In this document: positions 3,577-14,938 of the stretch, piece after piece
How positions within the stretch are numbered: the stretch's first letter is position 1
Layout: each line of letters starts with the position of its first letter
Assembly: GCA_030655715.1 (NCBI GenBank)
Contig: JAUSPR010000083.1
Location: forward strand, 1 to 14,938
Length of the DNA stretch: 14,938 nt
Direction: 5' to 3'
DNA from: Thermoplasmata archaeon
GTDB taxonomy: Archaea; Thermoplasmatota; Thermoplasmata; SG8-5
Made by a program: the position numbers and the translations under genes
Notes under the pieces: generated by a model
Told to the model about the DNA's origin: nothing
Databases searched by the model: none
The model's input: only the letters and a program-made list of their open reading frames with translations

Positions 3577-4419
3577 ATGAACGGAACTTTATTTTCTGAT
3601 GCACATGCGGTTTTCAGCAATAGCAAGTATGTAATATTCGGCGTGCCGCTTGATTTGACTGGCACGCATAGACGGGGCACGGGTAAAGGCCCTGAATCCA
3701 TCAGAAATGAATCTTACACATATGAATCCTTCATGCCTGATTTGGAAATCGATTTCTCAGAAATTCCAACTTATGACAAAGGAGACCTTCCGATGAAAGA
3801 GCCCCAGAAGGAAATATCCGAGGTTGTTAAGGAAATCCTGGCCGCCAAAAAGGTTCCCATCATGTTGGGAGGCGAGCATTCTGTTTCTCCTTATGCCGTT
3901 GCAGAATTTGCTGATGTTTCCGTGCTGGTGTTCGATGCCCATCTGGATTACAGGGACGAGTTGAAGGGGGACAAGAACAACCATGCTTGCGCAATCAGGC
4001 GCATGGATGAGATTATTTCTCCTGAAAAAATCCTCCCGGTAGGTATCAGATCGATATGCAAATCAGAGTTAAATGATGCTAAACGCCTTAACCTGAAATA
4101 CATCACGGCAGACAAAGCCAGGGAGCTTGGTACAAAGGAACTGATAGCATTCATTGATGATTATCTGCCTGGAAACCTCTATGTTTCGGTAGACATAGAC
4201 GGCATTGACCCGGCATTCGCGCCCGGCGTGGGAACACCGGAGCCGTTCGGCTTGGAGCCTGTCATGGTAAGGGACATAATCCGGCATGTCGCTCCAAGAA
4301 CGTCAGGTTTTGACATCGTAGAAGTTTGCCCGCCAGTTGACAATGGTAATACCGCGGCGCTTGCGGCAAGATTTGTAAAAGATTTCATAGGCGCCCGCGA
4401 ATTCGGCCTAAACTACTAG
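3577..4419 (+). CDS. speB: Agmatinase-family ureohydrolase
   Basis: Members hydrolyse agmatine to putrescine and urea with a two-manganese centre. The 280-residue protein has the full ligand set: His101 in GGEHSV, Asp120, His122 and Asp124 in FDAHLD, and Asp206 and Asp208 in SVDIDGIDP, plus NHACAIRR at 135-142 and the family-typical PGVGTPEPFG at 216-225. Only three bases separate it from aIF5A (TGATGAATG), so the two are surely cotranscribed. In haloarchaea an agmatinase-like enzyme has been proposed to act in the hypusine pathway through an agmatine-derived intermediate, so its substrate here could be agmatine, aminopropylagmatine or an aIF5A-bound intermediate. The symbol reflects family, not proven substrate. 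Confidence 0.88.
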   Translation: MNGTLFSDAHAVFSNSKYVIFGVPLDLTGTHRRGTGKGPESIRNESYTYESFMPDLEIDFSEIPTYDKGDLPMKEPQKEISEVVKEILAAKKVPIMLGGEHSVSPYAVAEFADVSVLVFDAHLDYRDELKGDKNNHACAIRRMDEIISPEKILPVGIRSICKSELNDAKRLNLKYITADKARELGTKELIAFIDDYLPGNLYVSVDIDGIDPAFAPGVGTPEPFGLEPVMVRDIIRHVAPRTSGFDIVEVCPPVDNGNTAALAARFVKDFIGAREFGLNY

Positions 4420-4472
4420 TCCCTGAATTGTCAATTATTTTCAAGAAATTGCATTAATCGATTCGGGACTCG

Positions 4473-4566
4473 AAGTTCAGGTGTGTAGGCCCTGCACCTG
4501 ATTTATCAAAGCCATTATGCTTTGATGAAATATGCAATAATATCACGGTGCATGGCGGTCTGCCAC
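4473..4566 (+). repeat. Structured dispersed repeat, copy 2 of 3
   Basis: The outer stem is GCCCTGCACC 4489-4498 with GGTGCATGGC 4547-4556 (one mismatch). The inner hairpin is ATCAAAGCC 4505-4513 with TGCTTTGAT 4518-4526 (one mismatch). It starts AAGTTCAGGTGTGTAGGCC and ends GGCGGTCTGCCAC. It lies between the convergent ends of the agmatinase and coiled-coil genes and fills most of that gap. Confidence 0.75.
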
Positions 4567-7369: not shown

Positions 7370-8142
7370 ACATCAGAAAGATTGTCAGGGACATGTGGAT
7401 AATCGCCTACATGAAATCCATACCTGACCTCAAGAGGCAGCCGCTAATGCTACTGATTTTGGTGGGGCTGGCAGCAATCCCGCTGTTCTTCATCGGGCTC
7501 TTTGCTGGAGGAGATAATGCCGAGGCCACATTCAATGGCGGACTTATTGGCGTGATTGTATCCAGCATCGGGTTCATCGCAATCACCGCATCTATTCAGG
7601 ACCTCACATACGACAGGTACGTGAAACTTCGGGAGATGGTTGTTGCCATGCCGGTCCATCCGCTATCCTACGTTATGGGCCTTACTCTCGGGTTCCTGAT
7701 TTTTTCATTCCCAGGATTCATCGCGTTCCTGTGTTACGGAGTCTACCGGGGCCTGTTCGATCCAATATCGATACTCATGACCCTTGGCGCGATGGTACTG
7801 TGCTGGCTGGCGCTGGCGACAATAGGGTTCACAATCGCGACCTACCTGCACAAGACCAGCCCGAACACGCTTGGCATAATAGCCAATATCCTGAGTTTCG
7901 GATTCGTGTTTCTGCCGCCGGTCTACTACTCGGAAACCATGCTGACGAACATTGGAGGGATGGACCTCTCATGGTTTGTGTATCTCCTGCCCACTTCCAA
8001 TGCAGCCGCAATAATCAGGTACTCGACAGATTTAACAGCCTGGAACGGGACTGCATTCATGCTTCACTGGATTATACTGGCACTTACCGTGATAGTGTTC
8101 TCGGTACTGGTTGTTAAAAAGGCTCGCTGGAGAGAACCGTAA
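7366..8142 (+). CDS. ABC-2 type exporter, membrane permease
   Basis: This 258-residue protein is the permease partner of the preceding ATPase. It has a short cytoplasmic N-terminus (to about residue 22) and six hydrophobic stretches: near residues 26-46, 60-78, 104-125, 137-160, 167-186 and 227-250. The pattern and the SPNTLGIIANILSFGFVFLPPVYYSE block match ABC-2 transporters. The start overlaps the ATPase stop by four bases (ATGA). A strong hairpin begins at the stop codon and runs into copy 3 of the structured repeat. Confidence 0.9.
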   Translation: MNIRKIVRDMWIIAYMKSIPDLKRQPLMLLILVGLAAIPLFFIGLFAGGDNAEATFNGGLIGVIVSSIGFIAITASIQDLTYDRYVKLREMVVAMPVHPLSYVMGLTLGFLIFSFPGFIAFLCYGVYRGLFDPISILMTLGAMVLCWLALATIGFTIATYLHKTSPNTLGIIANILSFGFVFLPPVYYSETMLTNIGGMDLSWFVYLLPTSNAAAIIRYSTDLTAWNGTAFMLHWIILALTVIVFSVLVVKKARWREP

Positions 8143-8170
8143 ACTACCAGCCTCCGGCTGTAAGTTTACG
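8138..8170 (+). terminator. Two-part hairpin spanning the permease stop codon
   Basis: CGTAAACT 8138-8145 pairs with AGTTTACG 8163-8170 (8 of 8), and inside it CAGCC 8148-8152 pairs with GGCTG 8156-8160 around TCC. The TAA stop lies in the 5' arm, and the 3' arm is the first part of structured repeat copy 3. No U-run follows. Confidence 0.5.
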
Positions 8171-8257
8171 TGTATAGGCCGTGCATCTGACTCATCAAAG
8201 CCGACTGGCTTTGATTTCATAAGCAATAAGATGTACGATGCACGGCGGTCTGTCACG
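8162..8257 (+). repeat. Structured dispersed repeat, copy 3 of 3 (best-paired)
   Basis: The outer stem GCCGTGCATC 8178-8187 with GATGCACGGC 8237-8246 is perfect. The inner hairpin ATCAAAGCC 8194-8202 with GGCTTTGAT 8207-8215 is perfect around GACT. It starts AAGTTTACGTGTATAGGCC and ends GGCGGTCTGTCAC. Relative to copies 1 and 2, two outer pairs have changed on both sides together. It lies between the convergent ABC permease and carbonic anhydrase genes. Confidence 0.8.
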
Positions 8258-13700: not shown

Positions 13701-13774
13701 TGCCCTTTGACCATTTCGGAGTTATAATTTTCTACTTTTAATGTAAATTACCAGCCCCTTGTATATACACCCCG

Positions 13775-14002
13775 TGAGGTCTATATCTCTGTAAAGCATC
13801 CTATAAAATAGGCTGAGGGGTAGGCGTACGTACAGACCCTGAGGCGCAAGTCCTCGAACTTTAGCAAGCCTCCCCTCCTATGTGATCTCTACGAATAGCA
13901 CGTAATGGGCCACAGTATGGCACCCGGCCATACAACACGTGGACTCCATGTATCACGTGCAAGCTTGTAGTTCGCATAGTTGCAGGGGCGATATAGACCT
14001 CA
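13775..14002 (+). ncRNA. Candidate IS110 bridge RNA
   Basis: A perfect 13-base stem, TGAGGTCTATATC 13775-13787 with GATATAGACCTCA 13990-14002, encloses a 228-base unit just before the transposase. Inside, arm A has GAGGGG 13815-13820 with CCCCTC 13872-13877 and GGC 13823-13825 with GCC 13868-13870. An internal loop (13826-13839 and 13857-13867) is capped by a hairpin GAGG/CCTC (13841-13855). Arm B has GCACGT 13898-13903 with ACGTGC 13955-13960, then an internal loop (13904-13914 and 13934-13954) capped by GTATGGC/GCCATAC 13915-13933. Two arms with big internal loops match the target- and donor-binding loops known for IS621. TATA-like boxes near 13734-13742 or 13760-13769 could drive it. Guide assignment is not possible here. 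Confidence 0.6.
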
Positions 14003-14003
14003 G

Positions 14004-14015
14004 CCTATAATAATT
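14004..14015 (+). promoter_or_regulatory. TATA-like sequence before the IS110 transposase
   Basis: CCTATAATAATT lies just after the closing stem of the candidate RNA. The ribosome-binding site GAGGTGA at 14017-14023 follows, eight bases before ATG 14032. Its closeness to the ATG makes it uncertain as the main promoter; transcription through the RNA region is an alternative. Confidence 0.3.
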
Positions 14016-14031
14016 TGAGGTGAAAAAAATT

Positions 14032-14938
14032 ATGAACACAATATTTGTGGGAATGGATGTGAGCAAGGACGATTTTATGGCCGCGGTCAAGGACGAACAG
14101 AACAATCTGATCGGGCCTGTGAAAAACTATCGACATGACAGACCTGGCCTGGAAGCTTTTGATAAGGATATACGAGCCATCAAGGAACAGCTCAGAGCTG
14201 TCGCGGTATTCGGCCTGGAATCCACCGGCATCTACCATCTGTCATTATACCAGCATCTGGTTGAAGCCGGTGAGCATGTAAAATTGTTCAATGCTCTTGA
14301 GTTGAAGAGATTCAAGAGCAGCATAAGAAAGACAAAAACAGACAAACTGGATGCACAGGCAATAGCCGAGGCATTATTATTGGTAAGAGAGCCGAGCTAT
14401 CATCATGTTTCGGAGCCGGAACTGATACAAATAAGAGAATTGTGCCGTCTCAGAGGTCGTCTGGTAAAGAAAGCGTCACAATGCAAGAACCAGGCGGTCC
14501 GGGACATGGACGTGCTCTGCCGTGGGTACACAAACCTGTTCGGCGATGTATTCAGCCCATCTTCAATAGCAATCATGAAGGCCGCGGTCAGGACGACCAG
14601 ACTATTTCAGATAGACAGGGAAAACATGACAAACATACTGAGTGAATACATGCCCAGACATACTGCGGAGACGAAAGCCGGAAAGCTCCAGACACTGTTC
14701 CAGAATGCGGTGGTCCCGGAGCATATGAAGGATATTTGTGTCATGGAACTACACATGATAATCCAGCAATATGAACTCCTAAAAATGCAAGTGAAACGCA
14801 TTGAGCGCAGGATCGAGACGCAGGTCAAGAATACAAACACGCACCTGCTGACCATCCCAGGCATAGGGATATTGACTGCCGGCGCCATACTCGGAGAATT
14901 GGGAAACCTAAGCAGGTTCAATTCCATCGACCAGTTGA
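14032..14938 (+). CDS. IS110-family transposase (3' truncated by window end)
   Basis: This is a recombinase of the IS110 family with a RuvC-like DEDD N-terminal domain and a C-terminal serine-containing domain (Transposase_20). The frame is open from ATG 14032 to the last base, giving 302 residues with no stop. Catalytic residues are visible as Asp9 (FVGMDVSK), Glu63 (FGLESTGIY) and Asp104/Asp107 (KTDKLDAQ). The middle is helical, as in the coiled-coil linker. The beginning of the C-terminal domain, LLTIPGIGILTAGAILGEL, is present; the catalytic serine would lie beyond the window. A strong GAGGTGA site supports the start. The N-terminal two-thirds look intact, so the element may be active. 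Confidence 0.93.
   Translation, partial: MNTIFVGMDVSKDDFMAAVKDEQNNLIGPVKNYRHDRPGLEAFDKDIRAIKEQLRAVAVFGLESTGIYHLSLYQHLVEAGEHVKLFNALELKRFKSSIRKTKTDKLDAQAIAEALLLVREPSYHHVSEPELIQIRELCRLRGRLVKKASQCKNQAVRDMDVLCRGYTNLFGDVFSPSSIAIMKAAVRTTRLFQIDRENMTNILSEYMPRHTAETKAGKLQTLFQNAVVPEHMKDICVMELHMIIQQYELLKMQVKRIERRIETQVKNTNTHLLTIPGIGILTAGAILGELGNLSRFNSIDQL

Follow-up and report, generated by a model that had tools for sequence, protein, structure and literature searches.

The repeat found in three copies in the window, by which we mean the whole stretch of 14,938 nucleotides analysed here from a Thermoplasmata archaeon, is with a probability of about 0.88 the core of a PATE-like, non-autonomous element of the IS200/IS605 type, which would be mobilised via its end hairpins by a Y1 transposase (TnpA) encoded elsewhere. 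This assignment follows from the layout of the element, its empty sites, a guide rule and a transposase with the same ends; at the level of sequence, the case consists of ends common to a transposase-bearing element, empty sites, complementarity at one position and a covarying fold. An unexplained structured repeat thereby becomes interpretable as a mobile element family in archaea that are known here from metagenome assemblies only.

The three repeats marked in the preliminary description were all recovered on the + strand, with cores at 776-857, 4481-4562 and 8170-8252 that score 71.7, 78.2 and 86.2 bits (copies 1, 2 and 3) under a covariance model built from 49 cores, the window's three among them. 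When compared with shuffles the copies gave fold z-scores of -2.39, -4.47 and -3.86, with 2, 0 and 1 of 200 shuffles folding equally well. The compensatory pairs that had been named are present (A-T/G-C at the fourth and C-G/T-A at the ninth pair of the outer stem, T-G/C-G at the eighth pair of the hairpin), albeit the 10-pair outer stem ascribed to all copies is intact in copy 3 only, one pair being broken in each of copies 1 and 2. The extent of about 95 bases was too short, as a left-end hairpin precedes the core in each window copy and the repeat constitutes the core of a longer element. As a right end was not detected anywhere in the window, its copies look like truncated relics. The features are as follows.

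448-475, + strand: isolated left-end relic (left-end match at 449-473, 96%)
about 740-775, + strand: left end of copy 1, 3' part only (partial left-end match at 740-778, 79%)
776-857, + strand: structured core of copy 1 (covariance model, 71.7 bits)
4408-4480, + strand: degenerate left end of copy 2 (sequence, ORF and alignment)
4417-4419, + strand: stop codon TAG of an arginase-family gene (Pfam Arginase), inside the left end of copy 2
4481-4562, + strand: structured core of copy 2 (covariance model, 78.2 bits)
8139-8169, + strand: left-end hairpin of copy 3, GTAAACTACCAGCC ... GGCTGTAAGTTTAC (sequence and alignment with other copies)
8140-8142, + strand: stop codon TAA of an ABC-2 type permease gene (ORF end 8142), inside the left end of copy 3
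8170-8252, + strand: structured core of copy 3 with outer 10-pair stem, inner 8-9-pair hairpin and asymmetric loop (covariance model and covariation); the folded strand is likely the reverse
13743-13759, + strand: left part of a further left end, the hairpin loop of which is interrupted by an IS110-family element (sequence; junctions compared with L081, L082, L083 and L085)
14029-14937, + strand: IS110-family (DEDD) transposase, running off the contig (Pfam PF01548, PF02371)

Degenerate as it is, the left end of copy 2 is by eye still largely pairable (CTAAACT..AGTCCC with GGGACT..AGTTCAG). The permease gene upstream of copy 3 matches Pfam ABC2_membrane_3 at 22.7 bits, under the cut-off of 31.6, and the relic at 448-475 contains the stop codon (449-451) of the ORF at 134-451. 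These stop codons within left-end sequence explain why the copies had appeared to lie directly 3' of + strand genes. In copy 1 the 5' part of the left end is replaced by other sequence that is found in L012 too. Another repeat, consisting of TCCAAATGTCC / GGACTTTGGA palindromes, adjoins or sits in element copies (window about 1-30 and 553-760; L012, L013 and L043), and in copy 1 appears to have taken the place of the 5' part.

An early alignment of 36 of 38 matches with their flanks, two duplicates being left out, already showed the repeat to extend further than had been described. The full element is about 210 nt in length and, in the direction read, begins with a left hairpin (GTAAACTACCAGCCC...GGGCTGGAAGTTTAC), continues with the core and ends with a second hairpin (e.g. 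CGATTCATCTCAGCCCTGAAGGACTGAGCGTTCTCG) near a final NTAA. From 194 sequence entries we extracted 108 de-duplicated two-ended elements, of which 62 measure 200-219 nt, 14 fall in the 230s, 7 are of about 115 nt and have no core, and 2 are of 712 bp; 106 of the 108 are shorter than 410 nt and have no transposase gene, while the remaining two carry tnpA. An alignment of 62 elements, restricted to lengths of 195-225 and with identical sequences merged, showed by its stem counts imperfect palindromes near both ends and no terminal inverted repeats, and by eye the left and right ends differ in sequence. The elements are mosaic in composition. A unit of some 26-29 nt (ACGATGCATGGCRGGTCATGCATATGAGC-like) occurs in one to three tandem copies on the 3' side of the core stem in L126, L150, L168, L183 and further elements from the S2_100 MAG.

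The flanks of 102 elements (6 of the 108 had too little flank) were joined at the inferred ends and searched against all sequence retrieved, yielding raw matches across the joint for 28 of the 102. Eighteen of these were dropped as self-matches at the element's own left flank, as gapped matches or as matches with less than 25 nt on one side, which left ten gapless matches elsewhere that extend over at least 25 nt to either side of the joint. These ten uninterrupted sites, which are to be taken as relatives of the insertion site and not as the proven ancestral state of the same locus, are 84-100% identical, including 80/80 and 78/80 bases; as the joints match continuous sites without gaps, insertion is precise and occurs without target duplication. 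Three of the ten lie within other element copies, two in the right hairpin and one in the core. The right junction reads NTAA in 101 of 108 elements and NTAAA in 74, as parsed by a procedure that favours NTAA where possible, with 7 and 34 junctions, respectively, lacking these motifs.

Immediately after the 3' arm of the right hairpin stands a base that complements the first base of the flank, i.e. the N of NTAA, in 94 of the 108 elements, the pairs being C with G in 40, G with C in 42, T with A in 10 and A with T in 2. This fit holds for 64 of 76 distinct right ends, whereas 20,000 shuffles averaged 27.3 and did not exceed 43; because related copies are not independent, the comparison represents no strict probability. 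The test covers one guide position, and the parse took in all 108 elements with all 14 exceptions counted as misses; judged by eye, six of the misfits are parse shifts (L008, L022, L023, L038, L048 and L162), five are real mismatches (L019, L020, L027, L149 and L186) and three are ambiguous (L018, L065 and L076). At the left end, 93 of 108 elements have C as the corresponding base together with G as the first base. When viewed on the reverse strand, a guide is situated directly 5' of each hairpin and the targets are TTAC, TTAG, TTAT or TTAA. In the account cited here, IS608 has the cleavage site TTAC, a guide AAAG 5' of its left hairpin and insertion 3' of TTAC (PMC5934647). Related elements of the present family carry different guide bases at correspondingly different targets, which amounts to natural target switching, and the family represents a natural experiment on target choice through DNA-DNA base pairing.

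A search for Y1_Tnp (PF01797) gave matches in 9 of the 15 genomes searched, with 1 to 5 in each, and 2 of the 15 Y1 loci are flanked by the repeat's left end on one side and its right end on the other. These two loci, L090 (G008) and L091 (G002), belong to two genera and are the elements of 712 bp, each with an intact gene, located at 1465-1941 in L091 and read against the core direction, for a TnpA of 158 aa that scores 100.0 and 99.9 bits, respectively, with Pfam Y1_Tnp. Its catalytic residues were recognised by eye, and among the solved structures that the L091 protein matches are 2ec2, 2f4f and 2a6m of ISHp608. We infer from the shared ends that the TnpA of the 712-bp element moves the smaller elements as well. 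Within the order, only these 2 of 13 genomes yielded relatives of 85-100% identity; another six Y1 matches, spread over five genomes, are 31-35% identical. The presence of a matching TnpA in only 2 of 13 genomes, with no Y1 transposase found in the window's own MAG (72.7% complete), counts against our reading. Divergent low-copy Y1 genes, some of them broken and without the repeat's ends by blastn, were seen at L088, L089, L092, L093, L094 and L099, and may belong to another IS200-type family. The stretch that precedes tnpA (L090 1890-2027, L091 1329-1465) looks strongly structured by eye, with two hairpins within an outer stem followed by a GGAGG-like site, and possibly controls tnpA translation.

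The low copy number of the Y1 genes, the many short palindromic copies per genome and the mosaic composition of the elements would also be expected of REP/REPIN-like repeats spread by a domesticated, single-copy RAYT and not by an insertion sequence. We regard this as very unlikely, as TnpA of L090 and L091 scores 106.6 and 107.3 bits with the NCBIfam model for IS200/IS605 transposases (cut-off 55) and 29.6 and 30.5 bits with that for REP-associated transposases, far under the cut-off of 80. In addition, TnpA lies within an element having its own ends, and the repeat forms a whole unit, each of the two ends of which has a hairpin with an adjacent guide.

The transposase that the window itself encodes is of the IS110 family, and IS110 copies of the window's own genome sit in the loops of left-end hairpins, such that the repeat might be taken for a miniature IS110 element with the folded part acting as its bridge RNA. 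This idea was rejected and we give it next to no credence, because IS110 elements of the window type, present in 2 of 9 genomes searched, were not found in G001, G002 and G003 despite the many repeat copies there, and because the ends of IS110 differ from those of the repeat, both of which the Y1 element has. By eye, the left flanks of the repeat also have no conserved target half. The window's IS110 transposase is thus likely not the mobiliser of the repeat. The junction of the own-genome IS110 in the left-end loop reads CCAGCCC-CT-AAAGTGG, its left side being seen in the window copy (13743-14938) and its right side in a second copy, L083 (about 935-966). In three G008 relatives whose left end can be read, L081, L082 and L085, this CT core recurs at other targets.

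Covariation of the core was assessed in 49 cores, comprising 46 from the 62 aligned elements, after removal of near-identical sequences, together with those of the window's three copies. Fourteen of the 18 core pairs change on both sides while 95.2% of cells stay paired, a combination that 0 of 500 shuffles reached, and two-sided changes were seen in 87 core cells as compared to 17 in shuffles, again reached by 0 of 500; the number of further pair types was not above that of shuffles (223/500). Sliding the partner by 1-3 columns lowered pairing to 17-37%. The selection on a single-stranded fold proposed in the preliminary description is thus well supported by covariation across two families. 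That description had also named a match to a known MITE with a transposase partner as a finding that would refute its reading, and this outcome has been obtained as well: the repeat belongs to a short mobile element, and a transposase-bearing element has the same ends.

As to the strand that folds, A.C mismatches on the strand read, which are G.T pairs on the reverse strand, exceed G.T by 67 to 24 in the stems of the 62 elements, by 53 to 12 in 66 distinct core stem strings and by 23 to 5 in 27 clusters; a sign test per pair column was marginal (11 to 3, p 0.057). Under DNA parameters the reverse strand is the more stable in 47 of 62 elements (p 1.9e-6), and under RNA parameters it folds better in 36 of 62 (p 0.08, not significant), both p values being too optimistic owing to related copies. 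Strand-biased mutation on single-stranded DNA could be an alternative source of the A.C excess, and would implicate the same strand. Wobble pairs, DNA fold energies, the geometry of the guides and the even orientation of neighbouring genes (see below) make single-stranded DNA of the opposite strand the most likely form of the fold, ahead of an RNA read with the upstream gene, and we infer that the core adopts it during excision and insertion; an RNA made from the reverse strand is a less likely form.

The strong covariation of the core and its wide conservation would also suit a functional RNA, be it a 3'-UTR element or a regulatory or OMEGA-type guide-carrying RNA, that was spread as cargo of the element, and some copies do begin at a stop codon, namely three left ends in the window and those of 5 of 35 co-directed upstream genes, which end 3 bases into the element. 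We consider such an RNA improbable, given the wobble pairs on the reverse strand, the existence of core-less elements and a lack of bias in gene orientation: upstream genes were found on the + strand in 40 and the - strand in 39 cases, and downstream genes in 37 and 37 (simple ORF caller, 104 elements, with 18 that overlap an ORF of at least 100 aa excluded from the counts). A 3'-UTR role was rejected for want of orientation bias, and the common orientation of the window copies 3' of + strand genes does not represent a general rule. Consistent with the earlier failure to place the repeat in a known RNA family, Rfam gave no match in the window at E up to 1; among 8 loci it recovered two tRNAs and a single match below threshold, all of them outside the elements. 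A TnpB-domain search put 0 of 13 genomes of the order over the cut-off of 26.3, with G002, G011 and G012 at 20.8-21.8 bits, and only G014, of another family, passed it. A resemblance to integron attC sites was considered on the general features of attC and set aside.

The core-less elements of about 115 nt, seven in number, occur at separate sites, one of which (L188) has a gapless empty site at another place, and the core is therefore not strictly needed for presence at a site. The family thus raises the question of what maintains a third, covarying fold in an element for which the ends alone seem to suffice. Tentatively, and as a proposal that we would sooner doubt than assert, the core may be a third functional domain, a folded DNA or a reverse-strand RNA recognised by TnpA or a host factor, which gives non-autonomous elements an advantage and is kept by order-wide selection amid compensatory change.

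In the window's own MAG (G000; 1.73 Mb, 287 contigs, 72.7% complete) the repeat is present in dozens of copies, as a blastn search with copy 2, in which 40 of 105 first-look candidates were scored, returned at least 48 matches, 42 of them at or below an E of 3.1e-13. When a 210-nt composite served as the blastn query, the element was detected in 11 of 41 genomes. A search with a covariance model, of the kind that the preliminary description had proposed, placed the core, at E up to 1e-4, in 12 of the order's 13 genomes and in none of 107 sampled elsewhere in the class; carriers span two of the order's three families and five genera, and G009 is the sole genome of the order in which this search gave no core match. 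Core counts per genome are lower bounds that may miss weak matches, since scoring was limited to 38 candidates per genome and used stricter filters. The exact left-end pattern occurs in 78 stretches, the named records being MAGs labelled Methanomassiliicoccales, Thermoplasmata or Euryarchaeota, and it had no match among viral contigs.

In the mechanism that we propose, the end hairpins would be recognised on single-stranded DNA by a Y1 (HUH) TnpA, supplied from elsewhere by the 712-bp element with the same ends. On the reverse strand, the guide directly 5' of each hairpin would pair with the sequence to be cleaved or targeted (TTAN, in most cases TTTAN), and insertion of the element would take place 3' of this sequence without target duplication. 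The core might serve to compact the excised strand in the stretch between its ends; this is the least certain step, and compaction is a guess, if the most likely one, prompted by the three hairpins occupying most of the element.

Among the best-ranking matches in the openly available literature, no account of this element family was listed. As far as the cited accounts extend, several known systems share features with it. Like IS608 and other IS200/IS605 elements, it combines a Y1 TnpA, subterminal hairpins and a guide 5' of each that pairs with the cleavage site, and it is inserted 3' of a short motif, TTAC in the case of IS608 (PMC5934647); unlike IS608, its 712-bp element has no TnpB and its target is TTAN, the last base of which switches naturally. 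REP/REPIN and TnpA-REP (RAYT) systems likewise comprise palindromic repeats that are present in high copy number and have a Y1 transposase as a relative (PMC8266576, PMC3116915); however, REP carries a fixed GTAG tag whereas the hairpin-adjacent base varies here with the target, the element of about 210 nt has two distinct ends, and TnpA falls far below the RAYT cut-off. The own-genome IS110, in the hairpin loop of the repeat and with a CT core, resembles IS110 elements that target REP palindromes, e.g. IS621 (PMC1525189), and is in this respect a parasite of the repeat and not its mobiliser. The closest described kind, to the extent of the cited account, is the PATE of Haloquadratum walsbyi, which is reported to lack a transposase gene, inverted repeats and target duplication, to have palindromes close to its two ends and ends related to those of IS200/IS605-type elements, and to be invaded in its palindromes by other elements (PMC3119063), and a PATE-like sequence has been described in Halanaerobium too (PMC7290912). 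The present family differs from PATEs in a third, covarying core that is unusually well preserved and kept across two families, a point stated for this family's side of the comparison only, in a left palindrome that starts at the very end of the element, and in the coexistence of several guide and target types.
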